NCBI RefSeq assembly: GCF_026210795.1
Contig: NC_089448.1
Span: forward strand, 2,542,001 to 2,606,000
Direction: 5' to 3'
From: Rhizophagus irregularis
Lineage: Eukaryota; Glomeromycota; Glomeromycetes; Glomerales; Glomeraceae
Length of the DNA: 64,000 bases
The position numbers and the translations under genes were made by a program. Shown here piece after piece: positions 5,703 through 56,009 of the stretch. Position 1 is the first letter of the stretch. Every line of letters starts with the position of its first letter. The notes under the pieces were generated by a model. That model worked only from the letters and a program-made list of their open reading frames with translations, searched no databases and had not been told where the DNA came from.

Positions 5703-6864
5703 TATATAGTTACAAAGAATATCCACGTTCTGATCTTTCCGTTGTTAGACCTCATAAGAATAAATAAATCAAGGAAAATTGCTGTATGCTAAATGCAACA
5801 TCATATACAATGAAGTTCTTTAATTTACAAGAAAATTAATTCAACACCATAAAAATGTCCTGCAGATTCCAGAAATGCTTTACTGACCTGCTTTTTATAT
5901 TTAATCACAATTCAAAAATGGTCAGTGATATTGCAGCAGTCGTTTACAGTACATGAATTTACAATCCAGCCCAAGCAATTTGCAAAGTGATCCATTCATT
6001 TACATTGAAATCCTTCTTCCACTTTCACACCATCCGTCCAACTTCAGAAGCTTCAGCGTAAGCGCAATACTTGCTTGTGGTATGTCTTATTGTCAAATTT
6101 TTATGCCTGGAGCTAGAAGTAAAAGAGAGTAATTTTTTGTTTTCACAGAAAGCTATGTATACAAAAATAGCATTTAACAATTCGCAATAAAAAAAGAAAA
6201 ATACGTAAAGTATGCCTTATCAAAGCTTTGCTAATGAAAATATGAAAATACAGTACTATCCACTTTATCATTTTATGATCGAAAAAAAATTCTAATAATA
6301 ATTTCTTTTCGTACAGTACGAATAGTAATTATAAAAACACTTGTCCGATTTGCAACTATTAGAGACTCCAACAAGTATGAAGTATGAACATTTCACACTT
6401 TATAAAATATATATTCACAATTGTTTGCGTAATGATTGTGTTTTGATAATATTTCACATTGCTTGATAGTTGTAATCACTGAAACTTTATTTCAAGAATC
6501 TAAGAATCTTATTTATGTCACAAAAGATAAAGTGGATATCGATTAATACCTGAACGTTTTTCAAAAATCATCTCGGAAGCTCGTATCAAACAAGAGAAAA
6601 TGAAAGTGGGTTCATGATTACCTTTATGGTATTTTCACTACATTTCAGTTTAAACCTAAAAGTAAAACCTACTAATATCGAAATCTGATAATTGAGGAAT
6701 GCAAATTACCCCTTGGGACAAACAATATAGATCATGTGACTGACTGCGAAATATACTACTATATCAGATATGATATAAAAATATGAGTATAATTTTTTTT
6801 AAGGGTTTCGTACATATAGTTTTATCGGAGTTAGTTATATAATATTGTATGTTAATGAATATTA
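5703..6864. other. No intact gene
   Basis: The minus strand at about 5870-6090 shows short stretches that may be the decayed N-terminal part of the polymerase remnant. Apart from that I see only AT-rich sequence without convincing frames. Confidence 0.4.
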
Positions 6865-7060
6865 GCCCCGTTCAATTCTGGTCGGTTGCATTTTTCGGTC
6901 GGGTTTTCTTTATTTTGTCCGATTTTTTGTGTAACACATTTTATATCCGACCTTTTGACTCATAAAATTTTTGGTTTTTTTTCAGTCGAACGCGTTTTAC
7001 CAATAGAATGGTTATTTTGCGTATGACCAAAAAATGCAACCTACCGGAATTGAAAAGGGC
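6865..7060. mobile_element. 196-bp MITE with TA target duplication
   Basis: Terminal inverted repeats of about 36 bp: the left end reads GCCCCGTTCAATTCTGGTCG and continues GTTGCATTTTT, and the right end is its imperfect complement (about 80 percent identical). TA dinucleotides flank both ends (6863-6864 and 7061-7062). A related half-element starts at about 13081. The open frame that begins at 7008 partly overlaps this element and is not considered coding. Confidence 0.7.
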
Positions 7061-9306
7061 TATTGTGAATTTTGTGAAAATATTTGAAATTATAATGAAC
7101 GGAGTTCTACCAATACCAAATGTCTCCCTATATTATTTATTATTTTCACGGGTGCAGATCTTTTTGAAGGATGACAGATTGTTATTAAAAATAACACAAA
7201 AAATATTTTTAATTTAAGTGGTTCCTTTGTTTGGGAAATGCAGTATTATGAGAAACAACCTTATTTTGAAAATCAAAACAATAATTAATGAAAAAAAAGA
7301 AATTTTCATGTTAAGAAAAAAAAAGAAATGATGAGAACTGTTAAATCATTCGTTCTGATTAATTAATTCAACCATTTCTATCTACATAAAGAGTTGTTGT
7401 TGATATTATGGCTCATTTTAGCAATAAATGACTAAATATTAAGGGGAAAGCGGAAAGGTTTGATAATTATACAATTACAATTGATCTGGACTTCCATTAA
7501 ATTAATGAAACCGCGTACCATGCGTGATTCTAGATTCGTATGTGTGTTGATCTAGAATTTCTTTTAAAGTTGTGTGAACTCGAATCTTTTCGAATACATT
7601 AATTGGTTTATGAAACGATGCACAATGTGGTACACCATTTTAAAGCATGACTACTTTTTTTTTTTAAAAAAAAAAAGTGTTATCTCTTAGATAAACAATG
7701 AGATTATCGATAATTCCATATGATATCTATAAACTGAAGTGAACTGAGTCATTGTTTCCGCTTTTTAGCTTTAAAAGAATTTATTAAATATCACAAGAAA
7801 AAAAATGATTGATTTAGCATTTATTAAGGCTAAAGTCATTCAAGTTTAATGCTATTGACTTTCGTTCGTTCTTTTATTTATTTATAAAATCTCTAATACA
7901 ACACCACATAACTTTTAGCGCTGATGATTGAATTATATAAACTCATTCTAATTGTAATCTTTGTAATCTTAACATTGTTTTTTTTGGCTCCTTTAATAAC
8001 CTGGCTTGGTATTATTTATTATTATTGATTTATATCGTGCTTATTCGGTATTTCCGGTATATGCTTTTGTTGGTAATACACGTAATGATTATTCATCTTT
8101 CATTCAGATGACCTGCTGATACAGTTTCTAAAATTCTTAAAATTAATGAAGAATTTGTGTTCAACTCGTTGTATCACAATAAATTATTAATTATATAATA
8201 TTTTTATTTATTTTTCTTTAGTCCAATGTTTTCCGACTTTCTTTTTTTTTTTAGATTCTGGAACAGGATATATTAGATATATTGTTTTGAGAGGGGTAGG
8301 AAATTTTTTTGTAAATTAAAAACAAATAATACAAATTTGGAATAATGGGTATAGCTGACATGTTGTCATGTTGTTTCCTAAATTATAATATCATTTACGA
8401 ATAAAAAAAAATGTGATAATATTTATAAATTTGATTATGTTATTATCTAATAAATCAAAAAATTTAAACGCGTTTCTTATGTCGATCATGTCTTATCAGT
8501 TTTAAATGACGGCGTAATGTGTTAATATTTCCAATATTTCCAACATATACAAAAGTTTTTCCGTTACTAATGTGATATATAACTTGTTTATGAAGTTGAA
8601 TCGCTTCTTTTGATTTATAAATATTATTATTATTATTTTCTTTCTTTTTTTCTTTTTTTATTCGAATCTGTAATTCTAGACTCTTGAGACTCTGTCACAA
8701 ATGACGAAAAGAATTTGTTTTTTTTTTAAGTAACAGATGATTAAACTTGGTACTCCCTCTCAAAAGAACCAATTAAATTCCTAAAAATAAAGCTTAAAAA
8801 CCTTTGATTTTTGCAAATAATTCGGATTTCTCAAGAAAATTAATTAAGCTTTGATAATTTCATAAAATTATGAAATATAAGTCAAATAACAATAAGGTTA
8901 AAAATAAGCTTGTAAGGAAAGCTTTTTTCTTTACGTTCCCAAGCTTAAATTATAAGCAATCATAAGTCTTAAAATATATAAAACAAAAAAAAAACATTTA
9001 TGACTATCCAATACATTAACAAAAGAAAGAAACCTGTTTTTTTTTTCATAAAAGTTTCTTTCAAAAGTAAATTCTTTTTTTTTTATTCTAGTTTACGTTT
9101 ATTCATATTTCAAACACGTTCGAATACGTTCGAATACGCGAATACGCGAATACTTTTATGCTTAAATCTTAGTTTCTTAAATTTTATTAACTTATTATGT
9201 TCATACGTTCTTAAATTCTTACAATAAATGAATACAAACAAATTATAATCTTAATTTTTATAATCTTATATATTTAATATCATCATGTTATAATCGTCGT
9301 TTTTTT

Positions 9307-10148
9307 TTAAATATAATATACTAACTCCGAGAAAAGATCCTTCATAATTTCTCGTTCCTCCGACATTGTTAACTTACAGACCAGCACCTTAGCAGCTGGA
9401 GCTGGGGCTACTATGACTTCTCCCGCATTTTTAATTTGTGACTCATCGATATTGTTGTCACTTTTTTTATTGTTGTCATTATTGCCTATAAATTAAAAAA
9501 TTAATTATTATTATCTTTAGCGACATAAATGGTTTTCTACATGCATAAATTTACATATACTTACAGGAATCAGGAGCTAACGGTGTAAAAAATTCGATAA
9601 TTAACCGCCCTCTCCTCCATTCCATGCTCGTCTTATTATAAAGGTCCGTGAAAATATTTTTTAAAACGGGATCATTCATCTTCACCCATTTCCAGAGTGA
9701 GGATGAAATCTTTGAGACCTCATTCCTCTCATACCGGAAATGAAGCTCATGAAGTGCTTTTTGAACGGGGTTTCTGAAAATTAGGAATACTGTGGGTGGT
9801 TTGCGAGAGTTTTTCTGAAATCAAAAAAAAAAAAATTTGTTAATACAATTTGATCTACAAAATCATTTTCAAATTAGGCTAGTTTGGATAATTTGAAAAA
9901 TAGGTTCGTTCATAACACTATTTATTGTTTTCTTGATCAATTGACGTAGAAAAGTACGTGTTTAGCAATTTAAATACCTTGCAAGTCTTTAGTATTCCTA
10001 TTGGAGAAGGAATTTCAAATTCAGTAATATTATCGTACCCCAAAAGACCGAAAGAATACTGTCCCGTCGCAATACGAAAGAGGGTAGCAATAGGAAGGAG
10101 TTGAGAATTTTGAGAATTTTGAGATCTTGAATTATTCGTGTTTGCCAT
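9307..10148 (-). CDS. HMG-box (MATA_HMG-like) protein, copy A
   Basis: Three exons (10148-9978, 9814-9565, 9485-9307) with GT..AG junctions join into a 199-residue protein. Residues 58-140 (exon 2) look like a divergent HMG box: a KPPTVFLIFR start (the Pro-Pro-x-x-Phe-x-x-(Phe/Tyr)-(Arg/Lys) pattern), then VSKISSSLWKW and a helix ending in MEWRR. This suggests a sequence-specific DNA-binding nuclear protein like the MATA_HMG proteins expanded in Rhizophagus, some of which sit at mating-type-like loci. The short Asn-rich N-terminus and the C-terminal tail (LFSELVYYI) are shared in outline with copy B at 15400-16156. The HMG assignment is by pattern only; the gene structure is well supported by the conserved paralogue. 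Confidence 0.7.
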
Positions 10149-12105
10149 TTTTTTTTAAGGACCGAGTAGACCGAGTAGAACGATTGTGGATGTTGTAGGA
10201 AATGTGGAGGATACGGGAAACGACGGAGTATTATACTATTTTTTTTCTTTGAAGGAATTTAACTCAAAAAGTGAGGGAGGAAATTTCGATTCTTTTTATA
10301 ATTAAAAAAAACAAAGTCATTAGATATTATTATAATAACATAACTTTTACTCTTATTAACTTTTGATTTTGGGGGCGGATGATATAATTTAATCGGAGTT
10401 CGTCGACATATTATTAGACACTTTGTTAACATATTGGACACAGAGTCTGAAAGCAAATTTGATCACAAAATGAAATATAATCAATTTCTTTATGAATAAG
10501 GTATGACATTTTCCGTGTAATAATAATTTTTTTTTATAATATAAAATTTGATTACTGCGCTTTGAATTCAACGCGCAAAAACGTATTACGTAATATGTAT
10601 TCCAATAATTTCAATACATTATTCTAGGCTTTAATTATAAAATTGTATGTTTGAATGGAATGTATGTAAAAGTAAAATTAAATAAAGTAAAAAAGTAAGA
10701 ATAATATTTTTTTATTTATTATATATAATTCTAATAATATAACATACTGTGTATATAACAAATATAAGATGATCATTTTTTATCAAATAATAAGCACGCG
10801 TAATGCAATAAATTCTAGTGTTACTTCGATTCAAAAAAGAAAAAATAAAAAATAAAGAATATAAAAAGGAAATATCCATCGCTGTTCGGCTTGTCATTAT
10901 AATTTTAAAATAATTTAAAAAAGGTAATTACATAATTAGTCGCGTATTACTTAAAGTTACTCAAATAATCTAATTATAAGAATTTTAAAAGATTTGATTT
11001 GATTTATAAATTTGGTTGGTCAAGGAATTAAAGATTGGAGCTTTCAAAGTTGAGTTATTAAATAAAAAAAAACTGACGGAATAAAGTAAATAATATAACT
11101 GGAATACTCATCATTTTTATTTAAGTGGCTTACGGAATTTATAAAATCATTAGAAAGTGTGACCTTACATATATCAAAGGGCTTTTTAATGATATTAGGA
11201 AAACTTATAATACTTTTCTAGAAAATTTTCCGGAAATTAAAATTATTATATAAATAAATTTAAATAATGTTTAATCAGATCTAATCGTTTTTCTTAATAT
11301 TATTCTTTGACAAATGACCAAAAAAAGGAAAGAGTTTGAAAGAATACCTCCAATATTTAAAATATTTTGAGATGTTGATCAAGTTCAATGAATTTATTTG
11401 TGATGCAATGTAATGTAACATCGCATCTTCAGGGAGTTTCTCTTGCAGGAATAGTATAATTTCCGGAGTATATTCCGAGTAAACCTAAATTTAATTTCGA
11501 ATTTTTTGAATATTTTTTTTTTCTTAATATTTAAATTTTGTTTCATTAGTATATGATATTTTAAGGAATATAAACTTGTTATTTCTTATAAATCGTCAAA
11601 AATTTCTCTGAAATTTAAGTAAAATCGGAATTAAATCCGCATGTCTATCAATATTTGTAATTAAAAAGCAAGGAGGCTTTGTATCACTTTAAGATTCAAA
11701 ATATTTAATATTTCCAAATATGTGATAAAAAAGTAACAAAAGTACAAAAGTAATAATAATAATGATGAGGTTTCGAACACCATTCGTGTCGAACGATAGA
11801 CAAAAAGGAATTTAGAATTGCGTTAAGCCACACCCATTATAATTTTTTATGCATACTCTCATTGTTAAATTTGGAGCAATAGAAATTTGTTTTAATTCTT
11901 TTGCTTTAAAATGAAAAGTCAAATATGATATAACAATAAATGATTCTAATTTCAATTCGTTATATTATATTATATATAAGGTATAGATAGTATTTGTATG
12001 TTTTGAAAGAACGCCGTATTTACGGTTAATGATAATATTAACTAACCTAATTTGGATAAATACTCTTTCTATGTATTCTCCTGTAAGAAAAAAGATGATG
12101 TCAAA

Positions 12106-12130: not shown

Positions 12131-12621
12131 CGTCTCATTTAGAGTCCAGATTTAAGATATATTGAATGCAAAACGTACGGTTTGATCTTTAAAATGAAGG
12201 GAGTGCTATTATATTCACGCATAATGATGTTTATAATAAAAAATCTACCTATTGCACATTTTTTTTAATGAGGGTGATTAATGTCACACATGAACACAAA
12301 AAGAGATTATATTTAGGTTCAAGGTTGAAATCATTTTTACTTTTTGTGTAGCGAACAAACATTGCATCACTATGATTTCCATGTAAAATTCTTTTTTTTT
12401 TTGAAAATAAAAGTGAAAAGATTCCTCTTTTTTCTCCTATTGTAAAAATTCTCCGACCCAAGTTGAATTATCTAGCCATTTTAATATCTAAATTACATAT
12501 CACGTGTACGGCTAACTTTTGCTATTGTAGATAAATTTAGATAAGTAATCATATTTAGTTTAAAAGGCTAAAAAGGAATAACTGCCCGTTGTATAATCAC
12601 CTGATCTTATACAGATCAACG

Positions 12622-12936
12622 GACGACCATAGCGTCGCCTCCAAAAAATGGTAGCCGGATTATTTTGCCGGTTCTTTAGTGTTAGGGTTAGGATTAGGGT
12701 TGGGATTAGGTAAGGGGATTAGGATTAGGATTAGGGTAAGGGGATTAGGGTTAGGAATTCGTCACATAATGTCACTCCCTAACGTTTCTTTAATTTTATA
12801 ATTATTCTGAGGACTTAGAAAATTTTTTATACGTAAAGTACTAAATGTCACGTATTATTTATCACCTCTCAATAATATATGTAACCTGGCAAATTAGAAC
12901 CGGCTACCATTTTTTGGAGGCGACGCTAGGGTGGTT
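12622..12936. mobile_element. 315-bp Mutator-like MITE containing telomere-like repeats
   Basis: Long inverted termini share the core TAGCGTCGCCTCCAAAAAAT followed by GGTAGCCGG at both ends (12630-12658 and complement at 12900-12928), with a few mismatches at the outermost 8 bases. Perfect 10-bp direct repeats CAGATCAACG flank it (12612-12621 and 12937-12946), a length in the Mutator range. Inside lie TTAGGG, TTAGGATTAGGG and GGGGATTAGG variants (about 12677-12755). The matching place in unit B (about 18606-18615, ATGATCAACATAGGG) looks like an empty site. Confidence 0.8.
12677..12755 (+). repeat. Interstitial TTAGGG-type repeats
   Basis: Degenerate tandem units TTAGGG / TTAGGA / AAGGGGA fill about 80 bases. 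TTAGGG is the usual fungal telomere repeat. Their position inside a transposon with TIRs argues against a chromosome-end fusion at this point. Confidence 0.8.
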
Positions 12937-13080
12937 CAGATCAACGTAATGTTAGGGAGTCTTTCAAGCTATACTGTACATAAAAAGCATGATATGCAAT
13001 TTTATTTCTCATTTATTCCTGATATCCTGATATTATAATATTATTACACTCTATCCTTAAAAATAAATGCAAGGATACAT

Positions 13081-14149
13081 AGCCTTGTTCCTTTCCGGTC
13101 GGTTGCATTTTTGTTCGGGGGTTTGTTTATTTTGATTTGTTTGTTTTTACCTACTAATGCATTTACATTATTTAGTTCTAATTAGAAACAAAGTTACCTG
13201 TAGATTAATAAAAAGTAATAAATAAAATTGTTTAAACATCAATAATAAAAAATATATATATATTTATATTTTTTATTAATCCTAGGTAGTGGTAAATGTC
13301 AGTTTGGCCTAATAAAATCCAAATTTTGTATCTGATTCTGCAAATTTTGGACTTGGGTTTGCGAATTTCTATATTGACCTTTCTAATTCTGAGCCTGAAG
13401 AATACAACCGGCATGTCTTCTCCAACGTTCTGCATTGATAAATACTAATCGTACAAATTTATTTTTATTTGGACTACAATTTTGTCCGATTTATACTAGT
13501 CTAATTTGGCAAGAACTAAATTTTGGTATAATGATTGTCGGTAAATTGATTAATTAATTAATTGAAGTTGTAACATGTATATCATAGTAACACGAATTTA
13601 TTAGCATAAGTCTTTATTTAATACGGCGTTTTCGTAATTTTGAGTCGTAAACCGAAATTACTAGGTCTGTAACCTAGGTGTAATCTGAAATGCCTTGATT
13701 ATTACTAGCGGCTACTAACTTCAACTGACAATTTAAAAAGGATTCGTTTGGGATTTTGATACATTCTTTTAATCATTCTTTTGGTCAAAACAATTACTTG
13801 TGTAATATCGATATTAAAATCCTAAATGAACTCTTAAAATCTATGAATAATGTATACAAATTGTTAAGGACATTTTACTGTACTGCATTAGACGATCCCA
13901 TGCGATTTTTTCCTTCCTTCCACTAACGTCATCATATTAACCTTTGCTTTTTCCTATATACCTTCTTATTTGGTGTTACATATTTTTATATTATGCTATA
14001 ATTTTTTAGATATTGAGCAAATAAATGCGACGGTTTCTGTTTTCCTAGTAAAAGAAGTACAAGTTTATGCACAAATTTATAAACAAAACTTTAACAATAT
14101 TTGTATACGATCTATTATCTTTTATCCGAATTCATTATTTATATTGTGA
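13081..14149. other. Spacer between duplication units
   Basis: It begins with a half copy of the TIR seen at 6865 (CCGGTCGGTTGCATTTTTG at 13096), with no matching right end that I can find. The rest is AT-rich without a convincing gene; the open frames at 13232-13435 and 14067-14264 have no recognisable features. Confidence 0.5.
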
Positions 14150-15347
14150 AATTTTTTTAAATTACAATGAAGCGGCTCTACCAATGATTTCAATTTTTCC
14201 ATGCAGATTTTTCCATGCAGCTCTTTTGAAAATAATGATATGCAAACATTTGAAAAATTTGTAAAGGCACGAGCATTTTTGAGTTACAATCAATGTTTCT
14301 TATATTAAAGAAAATTGTTGAGCTATTCGTTCTTTTTAATTAATAAAAAATTATTTCAACTATTTTTGTCGATATAAAGAGTTATTGTATTTGTTGATAT
14401 TTAATTCTGTTACAACATTAATCGGATAAATATTAAGGGGAAAGGGGGCAAACTATGCAAATGGGCTTGGACTTTCATTAAAATTAAATGAACTACAGAT
14501 GATATGTGGGAGATTTGAGTTGATACATTAGCTCAGATCTTGATTGGTTAATAGAAGGAATGTACACCATTTTAAGCATGTCATAAAAAAAAAAAATTGA
14601 TAAACAATGCGATTGTTAATAATAATGGCATGAAACGGAAATTCATTGTTACCCGTACGTTTTTAGTTGGAAAATTCATTCAAATTTAATACTAAATATT
14701 AAACATTATTTTTTGTTCCTTTTATAATCTGTCTTGCATTTATACTACCACATTTATTTAAAATTATATATATCCGTGCTTATTTCGGTATGTATTTACA
14801 AAGTGTGTCTTCTAAAAGATAATAAAGGATTAGTTTACAATTTGTTGTATCACCAACCAATAATTATTAATCAAATTACTTTTAGACCGAATTTTACTTG
14901 ATTTTTTTCTTTAATCGAACTTCTGGAGTGGGACTAATGAGGAAGAAGAGATCACTATTAAGTTAAATTGCTTTTTGATTTATAAATATTATTTTATTTT
15001 TTTATTTTCTTATGAATTTTCGATTCTAGAATCTGAAAAAAAAAAAATCATACAATTTCTGAAAATAGGCTAAAAAAGACTATTTTAATTAACCCCCAAT
15101 ATCCAATTACAACACAAAAATAAAGCTTAAAAACTTTTGATTTTCGCCATAATTCTATTTTTTCGAAGAAAATTAAGCCATAATAATTCATAATTTATAT
15201 TGTTTGTAAAGAAAGCAACGAAAGCTTTTTTTTTTACGTTTTACAAGTTTAAATTATAAGCAATCACACAAGCGTGATAGCAAGATAAATGATGCCTATC
15301 CAATACTTTAAAAAAAAAAGATAATAAACGATTTCGGTATGTCGATA

Positions 15348-15351
<4 letters not shown>

Positions 15352-15379
<28 letters not shown>
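15352..15379. repeat. (TA)n microsatellite
   Basis: About 14 TA units just downstream of the stop codon of HMG-box copy B. Confidence 0.9.
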
Positions 15380-15381
<2 letters not shown>

Positions 15382-15399
15382 ATATATATTGATCATGAT

Positions 15400-16156
15400 T
15401 TAATCATGATCTTCGATGTATGCTAGCTCGGAAAACAGCTCCCGGCTGATTTTCTGCTCCTCATACTTTGATAATCGGCAAATTAATTTGTTCTCATTTC
15501 GATCTTTTGCCAAATCATCATCTTCCTTTAACGTACCCCCGAGAATTGTGATCTCATGATCCGAGTGAGGTTGTTCTTCTTGATTTTTTTTTTTACCGCC
15601 ACGGTCGCCACCGGCTATTAATTAAAAAAAAAAAATTGTTTATATATGTATTTAATCAAAATTAGATTTTTGGATTGATTAATATACTTACGCGGCTTGG
15701 TAGATTCCAATGGAGTCAATGGAGTGAAAAACTCGAAGATCAAGTTTTCTTTCCTCCATTGTTTCGCTACGTCACCATAAAGGTTGACGAAAATATCTGC
15801 GAGATTTGGGTTCTTGGTTTTCACTTTCTTCCATAACAGCGAAGAGATCCGCGAAATATCCTTTCGCTCAAAATGGAAGTTGAGCGTTATTAAACATAAT
15901 TGTACTGGTCTGCGAAAAATTAGAAAGATCGTGGGAGGTTTTTTACTCCCTGGCTATAGTCAAAAATATCAAAAATATGTTAGTAGAATTCACATTATCT
16001 GGATAAGTATGTGTCTAACAATTTAAATACCTTGCACACGCCTAATACTTCCACGATAGTCGGAATTGTAAAGAGTGTAACTTTCCCGGAAATGCAGAAC
16101 AGATATTGGTCATTATCTTCATATAATTCTGCTTCGGGCAATGAATTGGCGGCCAT
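15400..16156 (-). CDS. HMG-box (MATA_HMG-like) protein, copy B
   Basis: Three exons (16156-16031, 15953-15692, 15614-15400) give a 200-residue protein. Exon/intron phases are identical to copy A, and the first intron starts with the same GTATTTAAATTG. The box (residues 43-125) reads KKPPTIFLIFR, then ISRISSLLWKKV and a helix ending in KQWRKE. The C-terminus (ELFSELAYIEDHD) parallels copy A. N-termini differ strongly, while the box and the ELFSELxY tail are best kept, which suggests purifying selection on both. Predicted nuclear DNA-binding protein; the target is unknown. Confidence 0.7.
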
Positions 16157-18740
16157 CTTTTTACTTTAGTTGGTGGATCGAAAGAAAGAAAAAAAGTAAT
16201 GGAAAAGTAAATTATGATAATTATTAACAAAGATGGTTTGTATAATTATAAGCGGCAGCTATTCGCAGGAGGAATTGAGGAAAGTCCGTACTTGTACGAG
16301 ATTTGATTTAATTCAAAAAATGAGGGAGAAAATTTTCGATTCTTTTTATAATTAAAAAAACAAAGACATTACTTATCATAATGACATAACTTTTTACTCC
16401 TATAAAATTTAAAGTACTCAAAATCACTTATTTTTTAGTTTTTAGGAGGATCGTTATAAGTTAATCGGAGTTTGTTAACAAATCAGACATAGCATATGAA
16501 AGAAATTTTGATCACAAAGTTTCCTTTATGTAATTATAATAACCAAATTTTATTATAATGAAAGATTTATTTGCTACGCTTTAGATCTTTTACGATTACA
16601 TTTTCTAAATTTTTACTTCTTTTTTTAAGTTAATAAGTTAATTATAGTTTTTTCTGTTTCAATTGAATTGTATGTAAAAGTAAATAAAATAAAGTAAAGA
16701 ATATTTAAAATATTATTATTATATTTTAATGTTAATAATAATAAATTGTTTATGTGTATATAAAAACACTTTGGTATTGTAACATCAAATCGTTAATTTA
16801 AAATCGGGACAACACGTTTGTTTGTGATACTTGTCGATTAAAAAGAAAGAATAAAGGAAATAACCATTACTATCTATAACTTGAAAAATAATAGATTAAA
16901 TGATAATAAATGATCGAGTATTATTTAAATTACTCATATGATCTAATTTTTTTTTATATTTACGAATTAATCATATTTTTTTCCATGTGTCGTTTGTTGT
17001 TTAATAAATTGATTTTTAACTTTGATTGGTAGGGAATTTATAGATAAATTTTGAATTGTTAGGTAAAAACAATAAAACTGCTGACGGTATAAAATATTTA
17101 TAACTGGAAATGTATGATGATTTCATCTTTTTGAAAGAAAATGATTTTACGGATCATTGGAAATGAATTGTCGTCCATATTACTCGTATTTGTATATCAA
17201 AGGGTCCCAATGATATTGGGAAAACTTATTTCCGAGGAAGAAAATAAAATAAACAAATATTTATTAATATGGTCTAAATCGGTTTTTTTTTCTGTTCTTT
17301 GATAAATTATCAAAAAGGCAAAGATTTGAATGAATCACCACTATCCAAAAATTTGATGATCAATATGATGCAATGTAATGCAATATCGCAGCATCCCTTA
17401 TAGTGTTTCTTGCAGAAAATAGATAATTTCCGGAATACGTTCCGAACGATCATAAAAATATTTTTATTTTTTTTAATATTTGAATTTTATTTACTTATTT
17501 TTAATTTATTATTATTATTTATTATTTATTTGTTATCATTATTTTTTGTATTGGAAAGAATATTTTAAGGAATAAATTTTTATTAATCGTCAGAATTTTT
17601 GTCAAATAAACCGGATTATTAAATCCGCTTATTTTATCATAATGTAAGGAGATGTTTGTAACACTTTATATTTCAATTTTTATTCAACTTTTCCAAATTA
17701 GTAGATTAGTAATAAAGAATAACAAAAGTACAATAGTAATAATAGTAAAAAATAAAACTTCTACCAATTCTTGAACGAATGGATCGTTCCGGACATGGAA
17801 TTTAGAATTTTTCTCAGCCCTATCATTATATTATTAATTCATGATTTTCTTTTCCGTTAAGAAAGAAGTTAACGGATCATGCATATCTTTGATTGTTTAA
17901 ATTTTGAAGCAGTAGAAATCTTTTTGATTTTTTTTTTAAAATGAAAATTTTAATATGAAATAACAATAAATAATTATAAATATATATATATATACTTTTT
18001 TTTTTATTAGTGTTTATCATTGTATGAGAAAATTGCGATGATTATAATAAGACTAACCTAATTTGGATTATATATGCTTTATATGTAAGAAAAATGACTT
18101 GAAGGTAAGAAAGAAATTTTGTCTCATCTGTATTTATTGAATTTTTACATGTACGGTTAATCAACACAAGTTATCAGATTGTTTTGTAAATTTACGTCAT
18201 AATCAGTATATGTTTAAAGCATAAGCACTAGATATCTTTATTATATTGACATTTACAGATGCACATTTGAATTTAAGGTTACACACGAGGATAACATTGC
18301 GCAATGTGCATATAATAATCATTTTGAAGATTAAAGAGATAAGATTAAAAACAATTAAGTTTTAGAATGACACATTGAAGACATAAACATAATAAGAAAT
18401 CATAATAACATGTGTGTTTGTTGGAAGAATCATTGTTTGAATTACTATCGTGCATATAAGGCGTATTCTAAGTCCTCCATCTAGCCATTTTATTAACCGT
18501 TATTGAAGTGTTAAAATCTATAAATAAGGGTATAAAATGAACGGTAACAATGCTATTGTAGATAAATTAAGCAACTACTCTTTATATGATCACTTGATCA
18601 TATGATCAACATAGGGCTGTGTGGACTTTCAATATACAAATAAGCTATGCAAAAAAAAAGCATGATACGAATGTATTCCAAATTCTATTTCTCATTTTTT
18701 ACTGATAATGTAAACATTATCGCATTCTATCCCTAAAATA

Positions 18741-20064
18741 AATGCAATAAGATATCATTATCAACTCGAATTTATCATAAATTAACGCATTTACGTTCTA
18801 GTCAATAAGTTACAGTAATTGAAGTTGCTAGAAATCCCAATTTCAAAATAATAGATTTGTTAAACATTTTCAACAATAAGATTTTTTTGATGTACTCGCT
18901 TTCAAGAGGTACACTAGTTATAGTACCTCTCTGGTTATAATTCGTGATGGTTGTATTTCTGTTTAATGAATCTTTGATAACATTCATCCTCTTGGACATT
19001 CTAAATACAAATTCGATTTTTTACTTTTATCTGTCAATCAAATTTTATAATTATGAACTTACTTTTACTTAAATGCCGAGACAGAAATGCAATACTATGT
19101 TTGGTTGTGTTTGTAAGTTTTGCAGGTTATTTCATGCTCCCTTATCTCATATGTAATATCAAACCTTCCAGGTTTTTTTTGGCAATTTACCTCTTTCTGC
19201 GAGATATTTTCATTTCAATTTCAGTTAGTACACTATATAGGCGATAATAATAATAATAGTAACTAACTTATATACTACTTTAATATTTCCTTCTTCTAGT
19301 ATCGATTAACTCCGTACATTTACTTGGAATATCTTTATAAAGAATATTATTGTAAAATATTGAAAATATATCGTGAAATTTTTTTTATATCAATATTATA
19401 CAAGTAAATAAATGTTTCTTTGAGAGAGAGGTCGGAAAGAAATACTAGTCATGCGCCGTCGATATTTTATTCAAATAATTGTTGCACTTAATTTAACTTA
19501 TTTAACTCAATTATTTCGGATTTAATCTCAGATGAATAACCGCATTTGGCATCAAAGTACGAATTTACGGTCACATGTATAATTTATGAATCGGGTTCTG
19601 TCTAGGATTTCATGCCTAAAAAGTAGTGTGATTTAGACAAAAGTGCGGTTTTTAATTCTGACCGGATTTAGTGCAATTTCGGTTGGAATTAAATCATAAA
19701 TTTACTTAATTTGGGCCGAGATTTGTTAAAATGAATCATATGATCAGAATGTGCGTGAAAATTTTCCAAAAAAAATACGAAAAGTGTGAAAAAATAGCAA
19801 AAGTGCGAAAAAATGTGGTCGTTCCATCCTGGACACTCTAGTTCATGAGAAGAGCTTCGTAGATTTCGTTTGAAAGGTGGGCCTGCAAATAAAGTTTCTG
19901 AATTTACTAGTATGATAGTTAAAGACCGAGCTAATAAGTAATTAAGGCTCGTATAATGAATGTTCTTTATAGCATATAACTAATGATTTTCCGATTCACA
20001 AATAGAAAAATTAATTGGATTATGGAAACAGCATTAAAAATTTTTGGTGTATGTATTTACAGTA
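18741..20064. other. No gene seen
   Basis: AT-rich intergenic DNA. At about 19625-19830 there are repeated AAAAGTGCGAAAAA-type strings that look like a decayed small transposon end. The open frames at 18802-18999 (-) and 19053-19247 (+) show no domain, intron or codon signal I can support. Confidence 0.5.
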
Positions 20065-20997
20065 CAGACCCCGGCAAAAGTAATGGCGGTCAGTTTTTTT
20101 AATATAGACAACATAACGCCGAAGCCATTTCGCCGAAAATGATAGAAATAATATTAATCGCGCAATGAAAATAAATTATTTATTAAAAAACATCAGGAAC
20201 CTTAATAGATATTCTGATTTACATTCGAGTATGATACAAATGATAAATGCATAAAATAAAACTTAGATGTTGTCGATTCTTGATTTTCATTTTTTAGTTT
20301 CTATTTTACATTTTTCTGCCACGTCACCTATTTTTGCAATAAAAATAAAAAAAAATTCTTTTTATTTTTAAGTGTCTTTTCTTCTATGATATTATCACTT
20401 TAACATTCAAGTAACTGATATTAATTGTTAATCAATAAATAAATAACTTTATTTTCCTGAAAACATTTATTCAGTAAAAAATGATTATTATATTATAAAC
20501 AACAGGACAAATTTAATAAAAATTAGCCGATTCAAAAAATTTTCTAGGAAAGATTCTTCATGTATTTAGTATAAATAATAAAATAAACAAATGTAATAAA
20601 TAATATTTCGGCAAACGTCCATTCGGCGAAATGGCTTCGGCGAAATGTCCATTCGGCGAAATAACCATTCGGCGAAATTGATTCGGCGAAATAACCATTC
20701 GGCAAAATTGCTTCGGCGAAATGGGAATTCGGTGAAATGGGTTTCGGCGAAACGTCCCTTCAGCGAAACATCCCTTCAGCAAAATGGCTTCGGCGAAATG
20801 TCCTGATACCTTAGTATTGACATTTAAAATAAAAATATTTAGAATTTTGGCATTTTTTATAAGAGAGGTATATATTGCTTAAATGAGCATTCCACTGTTT
20901 AATTTGGTATAAAAGTAATGCTCTAATTGGGATAGTAATGAGTTATGATCAAATTAAGAAACGATATTCTCACCGCCATTATTTTCGCCGGGGACTG
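20065..20997. mobile_element. Non-autonomous Tc1/mariner-like element (933 bp)
   Basis: Inverted ends CAGACCCCGGCAAAAGTAAT (left, continuing GGCGG) and the complement of CAGTCCCCGGCGAAAATAAT (right) match the typical Tc1/mariner terminus, and TA flanks both ends (20063-20064, 20998-20999). No transposase frame is present. The interior carries the GGCGAAAT-repeat block at 20609-20805. A third, related terminus at 22742-22764 has the orientation of a right end, so the outer element could alternatively run to 22764. Confidence 0.75.
20609..20805. repeat. TTCGGCGAAAT tandem repeat block
   Basis: About twelve units of 15-18 bp built on TTCGGCGAAATGNCC are arranged head to tail. A single inverted copy, GCCGAAGCCATTTCGCCGAA, lies at 20122-20141. 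The minus-strand frame at 20558-20782 is a by-product of the repeats and is not counted as a gene. Confidence 0.85.
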
Positions 20998-35383: not shown

Positions 35384-35454
35384 GCATGCTTGGTTTAGTG
35401 GTATAATTCGCGCCTGCCACGCGCGAGACCCGAGTTCGATTCTCGGAGCATGCA
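35384..35454 (+). tRNA. tRNA-Gly(GCC), copy 1
   Basis: A 71-nt cloverleaf: acceptor GCATGCT/AGCATGC with discriminator A, a D arm with GGTTTAGTGGTA (A box), anticodon stem CGCGC/GCGCG with loop CTGCCAC (anticodon GCC), and a T arm CCGAG-TTCGATT-CTCGG (B box). There is no intron. A run of 14 T follows at about 35466-35479 and can serve as the polymerase III terminator. Confidence 0.95.
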
Positions 35455-35647: not shown

Positions 35648-35718
35648 GCATGCTTGGTTTAGTGGTATAATTCGCGCCTGCCACGCGCGAGACCCGAGTT
35701 CGATTCTCGGAGCATGCA
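35648..35718 (+). tRNA. tRNA-Gly(GCC), copy 2
   Basis: Identical over all 71 nt to the copy at 35384-35454, and starts 264 bp downstream of the start of copy 1. The flanking sequences differ, so the pair is not a recent block duplication, or only the tRNA has stayed homogeneous. It is followed by a T-run at about 35728-35739. Confidence 0.95.
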
Positions 35719-52153: not shown

Positions 52154-53480
52154 TTAATTTAAAAGATCTTTAGATTCTAATAGTTTAGTCAAATTAATTT
52201 TATCTTCTTTTACCTGATTATTATTATTTATAATATCATTTTCTAAAATTTTCACTTTCCTTATTAAAACAAAAATGTTAGCTGTATTTTCAATTTTCTG
52301 ATATATTTTTAATGTATTAAAAGCTGTTATAGGTAATATAGATGATATAAATAATATAGTTGTAAATGAATTAGATAAATTAAATAATGGTAAAAATAAT
52401 AAAGTTTTAATTTGTTCAATTATTGGATTTATAATGCTATATATAATATTTTTCTCCACCAAGATAATTAGTTGCTTCTTCAAATGTTATAACCAATTGT
52501 TATAAAAATTCCCATTTATCAGAACTTAACATAATTTTATCAAGTTATTTTCCATGCATCAATATTACTTTTATTATTTACTAATTTTACAGTTTGCATT
52601 TAAATATAACTTTTAATTTTAATTAATCTATTTCATCAAAGCATAATATGTTAAATTCCATTTAATGAATATATCTATGAATACTTGAAGGAAATATTTA
52701 CTAGTTTTACCAGCATTCTAATTATTATAAAAATTATTATATAAATAAAAATAATTTAAATAATTAATAAACATAAATTATAAAATTAAAATCCTTATTA
52801 CATTAACTTGATTTTATGAATTTTTTTGAATTTTCTCTAATCTTTGACTTTATTTTAGTCTTAAAAAAATCAATCAGTTTTTTTACCTTTAAAACTAATA
52901 ATTTAACTGAATTTAAACTTTTTTCCATCACTAATTGTAAAGTATATGTAGTACATGGCTGCCATTTTATATTAGAAGTAATATTATTCATTTCTTTTAT
53001 GGCTTTTTTCATATTCATCCTATTATTAGTTACTATTACATATGTTTTATCTCTTAAATTCCATTCATCTAGAATTACAAATAATGCATCAGATATATTT
53101 TGTGTGATATGAAGATATCTAATATATTCAATTGTAAGAATAACTTCATGAATAGTAAAATTTTTATTTAAAAAAGAACAGGTTCCACCTAAAAATCCCT
53201 GTCTATTTCTACCAGTCCACATATCAGTAGTCAAATTAATCGAAATTGCATTATTTTTGACAAATTTTTGAATTAAAGGAAATGTACAATTATAGGCACT
53301 TTGGATGGTTTGTTTAATTAATTTAACATTTGGAATGTTAAATGCTGAGTCAAGTTCTTTATAAATCTTTGAAAAGATTTTGAATGTGTAATATTTAAAA
53401 GTTGAGTATCAAAAATTATCCAACTAATTAATAGATTACATCATCAGAGATAGAAGGTCAGGATTTGTTAGATGATCTTA
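52154..53480 (-). pseudogene. Second hAT transposase remnant
   Basis: The frame at 53234-52803 shows hAT core features (TTDMWTGRNRQGF, ALFVILDEWNLRDKTYVIVT, then CTTYTLQLVMEKSLN). The frame at 52483-52154 resembles the region before the C-terminal dimerisation domain (TLLFLPLFNLSNSF). The stretches between and around them are decayed. It belongs to a different hAT lineage from the copy at 1188-3823. No TIRs or target duplication could be identified. Confidence 0.75.
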
Positions 53481-55660: not shown

Positions 55661-56009
55661 TAGGACCCAGAAATATATATAAAAGGGTCAGCGTATTTTG
55701 AACTAAAAAAAATCGTGAAAATCTTTCCATTTTTAGATAATTTTTTATAATTCCAGTCAGAATATTGACATTATCATAATTCCGGCCCTGAAAATGCTTA
55801 CAGCTCATAGTAAAAAATTATTTTCATCACCTGACCCCTATATATTAACGTACAGTAGGGGTGTACAATATTAACGTACAAACTGGCCCAAGTTTAGGAG
55901 TTATGCACTTGCACGTGATAGCGTTAACGTTAACTCCAGCCAGTTCGTACATTAATATCGTACACCCCCACTGTACATTAAGGAATCCCATATATATTTC
56001 TGGGTCCTA
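55661..56009. mobile_element. 349-bp MITE (outer of a nested pair)
   Basis: Perfect 20-bp inverted ends TAGGACCCAGAAATATATAT (55661-55680 and complement at 55990-56009), flanked by the 6-bp direct repeat ATACGG (55655-55660 and 56010-56015). There is no coding capacity. It contains the inner element at 55853-55973. Confidence 0.85.
55853..55973. mobile_element. 121-bp MITE (inner, mariner-like)
   Basis: Near-complete fold-back. The left arm starts CAGTAGGGGTGTACAATATT, and the right arm is the complement of CAGTGGGGGTGTACGATATT; homology extends about 50 bp into each arm. TA dinucleotides flank both ends (55851-55852, 55974-55975), as for Tc1/mariner insertions. Confidence 0.85.

Follow-up and report, generated by a model that had tools for sequence, protein, structure and literature searches.

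A MITE-like insertion with a telomere-like repeat array, probably Mutator-like, in one of two tandem units of the Rhizophagus irregularis genome

Introduction

Short sequences bounded by terminal inverted repeats (TIRs), 50 bp to 1 kb in length and without transposase, are filed as miniature inverted-repeat elements (MITEs) in the portion of a study of Rhizophagus irregularis cited here (PMC11075540). In the same fungus, Mutator-like elements (MULEs) are among the recently expanded transposable element families and are located close to gene families that have themselves expanded, according to an excerpt of PMC8647823. The target-site duplications (TSDs) of MULEs are 8–11 bp long and their TIRs commonly reach hundreds of bp; the fungal subgroup Mutyl has a 9–10-bp TSD and a 22-bp TIR, and group 35, fungi included, has TIRs of 22 to 220 bp among the rows shown (PMC6446971, sections excerpted). 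MITEs with passenger tandem repeats have been described in Xenopus (Xmix/Xstir, miDNA4) and in Lepidoptera (the (GTCY)n MITEs), as reported in part of the review PMC9659126. Telomeric repeats are also carried by Penelope-like retroelements at chromosome ends, including those of a fungus (extracts of PMC6431247 and PMC4522978), and 1,229 degenerate telomere tracts are given for C. elegans in the cited part of PMC9071541.

Here we describe an element at 12622-12936 of the window, by which we mean the whole 64-kb stretch of R. irregularis DNA that was analysed. Like MULEs and their short non-autonomous derivatives, the element has TIRs, a 10-bp TSD (within the 8–11 bp range) and a neighbouring gene of a duplicated family; unlike them, it has a TIR core of 37 nt and a telomere-like array, and no transposase was found for it. 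With the passenger-repeat MITEs of Xenopus and Lepidoptera it shares the combination of a short non-coding TIR element and an associated tandem array, but its array is telomere-like and it is known from one copy. The likeness to telomere-associated Penelope-like elements is that of a mobile element with telomeric repeats; those, as far as the extracts of PMC4522978 and PMC6431247 describe them, are retroelements in which the repeats occupy an end and presumably pair with the end of the chromosome, whereas the element described here is of the DNA type, has its array in the interior and is flanked by a TSD. Interstitial telomere sequences resemble the array in being short, degenerate, telomere-like tracts inside a chromosome, and differ from it in that the array is enclosed by TIRs and a TSD. 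No Mutator-like MITE with TTAGGG repeats appeared among the matches listed in a search of titles and abstract beginnings in the open-access literature, where one may nevertheless exist. Among the passenger-repeat MITEs, a DNA-type element with a telomere-like array in its interior would be a modest addition, unusual in its passenger.

Anatomy of the element

The element is 315 bp long and has inverted repeats at both of its boundaries (Table 1). Its TIR arms are 94% complementary over 36 nt (12623-12658 and 12900-12935), or 34/37 with the outermost base added; that base is mismatched, and all three mismatches fall within the outermost eight bases. From the left TIR a weaker, gapped similarity extends inward to about 12675 in the extended alignment, and the total TIR length is perhaps about 55 nt if gaps are allowed, with a core of 37 nt. 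Allowing up to 3 mismatches, a 29-nt TIR core was found at two places in the window, one per arm, with 0.00 matches expected by chance (100 shuffles). A structural scan for TIRs of at least 20 nt with an exact TSD of 8–11 bp returned three places in the window versus 0 in each of 20 Markov-simulated control windows, and the element has both the longest arms and the longest TSD among the three. Its single-stranded fold is much better than that of its shuffles (z −10.1, 0/100 as good), a strength of folding that the TIRs themselves imply. We found no open reading frame (ORF) of at least 50 aa wholly inside the element; a 52-aa ORF on the minus strand (12560-12718) overlaps its left part. GC content is 27% over 12758-12876 in the element interior and has a mean near 28% in the window. 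An imperfect inverted repeat (12774-12794 and 12940-12960; 21 nt, 81%), perhaps due to chance, links one inverted TTAGGG within the element to one just beyond the right TSD.

Table 1. Coordinates of the element, its parts and the paralogous empty site (positions within the window)
Feature	Position	Strand	Basis or remark
Left TSD, CAGATCAACG	12612-12621		Exact 10-bp direct repeat flanking the TIRs
Left TIR, 37-nt core	12622-12658	+	34/37 identical to the right arm
Telomere-like G-rich array with TTAGGG, TTAGGA, TTGGGA and TAAGGGGA variants and a 25–26-bp higher-order repeat	12681-12756	+	TRF; (TTAGGG)n alignment
AT-rich right-side interior, including the inner part of the right TIR similarity	12757-12899		Sequence, composition
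Right TIR, 37 nt	12900-12936	−	
Right TSD, CAGATCAACG	12937-12946		Exact 10 bp
Empty site in paralogous unit B, GATCAACA	18604-18611	+	Alignments; one target copy, element absent, edges accurate to a few bases

The tandem units and the empty site

The element stands in one of two tandem units. Their duplication is visible as six BLAST pieces between 8589-11949 and 14956-17979 (66–85% identity), and each unit has a minus-strand ORF for an HMG-box-like protein, at 9554-9820 in unit A and at 15621-15953 in unit B; the two proteins are 53% identical, and the element lies about 2.8 kb upstream of the former. Pfam HMG_box was found in the unit A ORF at E 0.0091, under its cut-off, and gave no match in the unit B ORF, while a profile of both proteins yielded one unrelated match only (E 0.057) among PDB sequences.

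As the query for an empty site we used the unit A flanks minus the element and minus one TSD copy. One blastn match ran across the junction of the joined flanks, to 18573-18747 (188 columns, 65%, E 2.8e-8). The single flanks already have low E-values (5.7e-8 for the right flank, at 18681-18747, and 8e-4 for the left, at 18551-18571), so the strength of the empty site lies in the order and spacing of the flanks more than in the joined E-value. The right flank also matches another repeat slightly better, at 6863-6917 (E 1.6e-8). Aligned to its counterpart in unit B, each flank scored higher than any of 5000 random window segments, drawn with the unit A and unit B loci both excluded (75.0 and 117.5, versus random maxima of 68.0 and 92.5). 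The edges of the empty site are known to a few bases, because the alignment of the two units around the junction is gappy, at about 65% identity. Unit B has a single target copy and lacks the element, which indicates that the insertion postdates the duplication or that the element was cleanly lost from unit B; of these, insertion after duplication is the simpler.

The telomere-like array

The array lies on one side of the element only and starts directly where the left-TIR similarity stops. Over 12676-12755, TRF reported a period of 6 with the consensus TTAGGG (12.8 copies, 70% matches, 12% indels), and the array agrees with (TTAGGG)n at 64/77 columns. TTAGG occurs 9 times in 80 bp of the array; the densest place elsewhere in the window has 3, and 3 is also the maximum in 20 simulated windows. 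Perfect TTAGGG is present 4 times in the array and 17 times in the whole window, both strands counted; no two perfect units are adjacent in the array, AGGGTTAGGG is absent from the window, and the array does not consist of the uniform TTAGGG units of a telomeric (TTAGGG)n array. TRF also reported a 26-bp unit with 90% matches. Two copies of this 25–26-bp higher-order repeat agree at 23/26 columns and have in common an unusual 13-mer, TAAGGGGATTAGG, which is found in the window at 12711 and 12737 only. The same complex variant occurring twice at a 25–26-bp spacing points to local, minisatellite-like duplication after divergence, and the degeneracy and higher-order duplication together suggest that the array grew in a minisatellite-like manner once degenerate. 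For these same reasons we do not read it as a recent telomere stretch: the seed of the array may have been telomere, though the array itself is not fresh telomere.

A preliminary description of this locus had claimed that TIRs and a 10-bp duplication bracket about 80 bases of TTAGGG variants, and that the element is missing from the paralogous position in unit B. Both claims are borne out, the first by TIRs that agree at 34/37 positions, the exact CAGATCAACG duplication and the TRF array, the second by the blastn match across the junction and the flank controls (0/5000). Its wording ‘TTAGGG variants’ was apt, as at 64/77 columns plain ‘telomere repeats’ would overstate the likeness.

Origin of the element and its array

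Our preferred reading, to which we give a probability of about 0.7, is that a non-autonomous Mutator-like MITE inserted into one of the two tandem units after the units had been duplicated, with the array as a passenger. A transposase from elsewhere in the genome would have bound the TIRs and inserted the 315-bp element at a staggered cut of 10 bp, from which the CAGATCAACG duplication resulted. The array, which we infer to have been within the element before the present insertion, would probably have started next to the left TIR as a short simple repeat, G-rich or related to telomeres, seeded by gap-repair capture or by slippage birth, and would then have diverged and expanded through 25–26-bp tandem duplication.

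It is possible, at less than an even chance, that the array does not derive from telomeres at all but arose within the MITE by slippage, as a G-rich minisatellite whose likeness to TTAGGG is convergence. Consistent with this, the unit TTAGGGTTAGGA fits the array better than TTAGGG does (scores of 56.0 and 49.5, the longer unit having more freedom to fit) and TTAGGA fits about equally well (50.0); the 26-bp period and the absence of AGGGTTAGGG from the window point the same way. Convergence is harder to reconcile with the strong G-strand bias of 35 G to 1 C over 12676-12760, with the 4 perfect TTAGGG units, and with a fit to TTAGGG that exceeds those to TTTAGGG (37.5) and TTAGG (36.0).

We consider it somewhat unlikely that this locus alone gained the array, in a MITE of a family generally without it, through telomeric or interstitial telomere DNA copied in at break repair or through addition by telomerase. 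Such an addition would suit a single known copy with an array on one side only, directly past the end of the left-TIR similarity, and R. irregularis telomeres consist of TTAGGG repeats according to the part of PMC10234402 cited here. The array, however, differs from (TTAGGG)n at 13/77 columns whereas the TIRs differ from each other at 3/37 and the TSD copies at 0/10, which argues weakly against addition at one locus (the array-versus-TIR difference is non-significant, Fisher p 0.26), and the 25–26-bp higher-order repeat would need local duplication of an array that had already diverged.

The preliminary description went further and proposed a mobile carrier that would seed interstitial telomere sequences across the genome. 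Within the preferred reading of a Mutator-like MITE with a passenger array, such a step would be a MITE family with the array in all of its copies, such that transposition scattered telomere-like tracts; we hold this to be unlikely. If it were true, the scattered tracts could be binding sites for telomere-repeat proteins or seeds of new chromosome ends. Interstitial telomere sequences are usually explained as fusion scars or repair patches, and cut-and-paste transposition would be a source of them if other copies of the element carry the array. If this is the sole copy with an array, it is a local curiosity.

Classification of the element

There is good support for a MITE-like insertion whose paralogous site is empty. 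The element is 315 bp long and bounded by TIRs, with CAGATCAACG on both sides and a single target copy at the empty site, and since no ORF of 50 aa is contained entirely within it, it is best read as a MITE, which is likely what it is. Judged from structure alone, namely a TSD of 10 bp that falls in the 8–11 bp range of MULEs, membership of the Mutator-like group is probable. The label ‘Mutator-like MITE’ of the preliminary description accordingly stands as to the MITE-like insertion and the 10-bp TSD and is weaker as to the superfamily, for which the TIR core of 37 nt is short, though longer than the 22-bp TIR of Mutyl; no MULE transposase was found among the 19 distinct protein pieces, part of the window’s ORFs, that were given to Pfam. 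The 64-kb window contains one copy of the element, and because a single copy is seen, we infer its mobility from one insertion.

It is quite improbable that the element is instead a non-autonomous member of another superfamily with long TSDs, such as hAT or KDZ. BED zinc fingers and DUF659 occur in hAT elements, and in the window there is a BED zinc finger at 1550-2158 as well as, under its cut-off, a DUF659-like piece at 52806-53408; two other small TIR elements in the window have 8-bp TSDs, and the short TIR core suits other superfamilies too. The TSD of the element is, however, an exact 10-bp repeat, whereas that of hAT elements is usually 8 bp, and the ends of the element do not resemble those of the two other small TIR elements. 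That the inverted repeats came about by chance around a relic of interstitial telomere is made very improbable by the 0.00 TIR matches expected in 100 shuffles, by the 0 combinations of TIR and TSD in 20 simulated windows, and by the empty site.

Searches outside the window

Four TIR patterns and one array pattern gave 0 matches in viral contigs, and a TIR 22-mer gave 0 matches in prokaryotic genome contigs. A TIR 19-mer gave 4 matches in the latter collection, all in contigs of bacterial metagenome-assembled genomes (MAGs). The 8-kb extracts around these each carried a 12-nt core once, on a single strand, and had 0 occurrences of TTAGG[GA]TTAGG; at the core, blastn aligned 19 to 33 nt with the element, the longest match being in a Porticoccus MAG (L003; 33 nt, 88%, E 1.7e-5 in a search of the four extracts only). 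We judged the four to be chance matches and not relatives. By blastn, the element had no match among plasmids and phages. Absence from these collections says little, because they are prokaryotic and viral and the element is eukaryotic.

Other features of the window

BACK, TLDc, RSN1/PHM7, RhoGAP and RING domains were identified in the window by Pfam, as were two candidate transposase remnants, at 1550-2725 (BED zinc finger above cut-off) and at 52803-53408 (DUF659-like, under cut-off), which we take to be hAT-like transposase. One small TIR element, of 347 bp, lies at 55662-56008 and has AGGACCCAGAAATATATAT ends and an exact 8-bp TSD, AATACGGT. Another, of 225 bp, lies at 1339-1563 and has AGGACCYCGCTTACTTATAA ends and an 8-bp duplication, AGATGAAC; it may be a chance structure, because its right duplication falls on the opening bases of an 18-bp tandem array that begins at 1564. 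The ends of both begin with AGGACC. A small inverted-repeat element of about 200 bp is present at 6863-7063, with ends near AGCCC..TTCAATTC.GGT.GGTTGCATTTTT, and a segment at 13080-13134, just right of the element at 12622-12936, is 82% like its left end and is possibly a half copy. A minisatellite at 20607-20803 is made of TTCGGCGAAATGTCCA-like units (about 13 copies of 16 bp, 73% matches in TRF). Finally, two tRNA-Gly(GCC) genes are arranged in tandem at 35384-35454 and 35648-35718, and the surrounding 97 columns are 93% identical.
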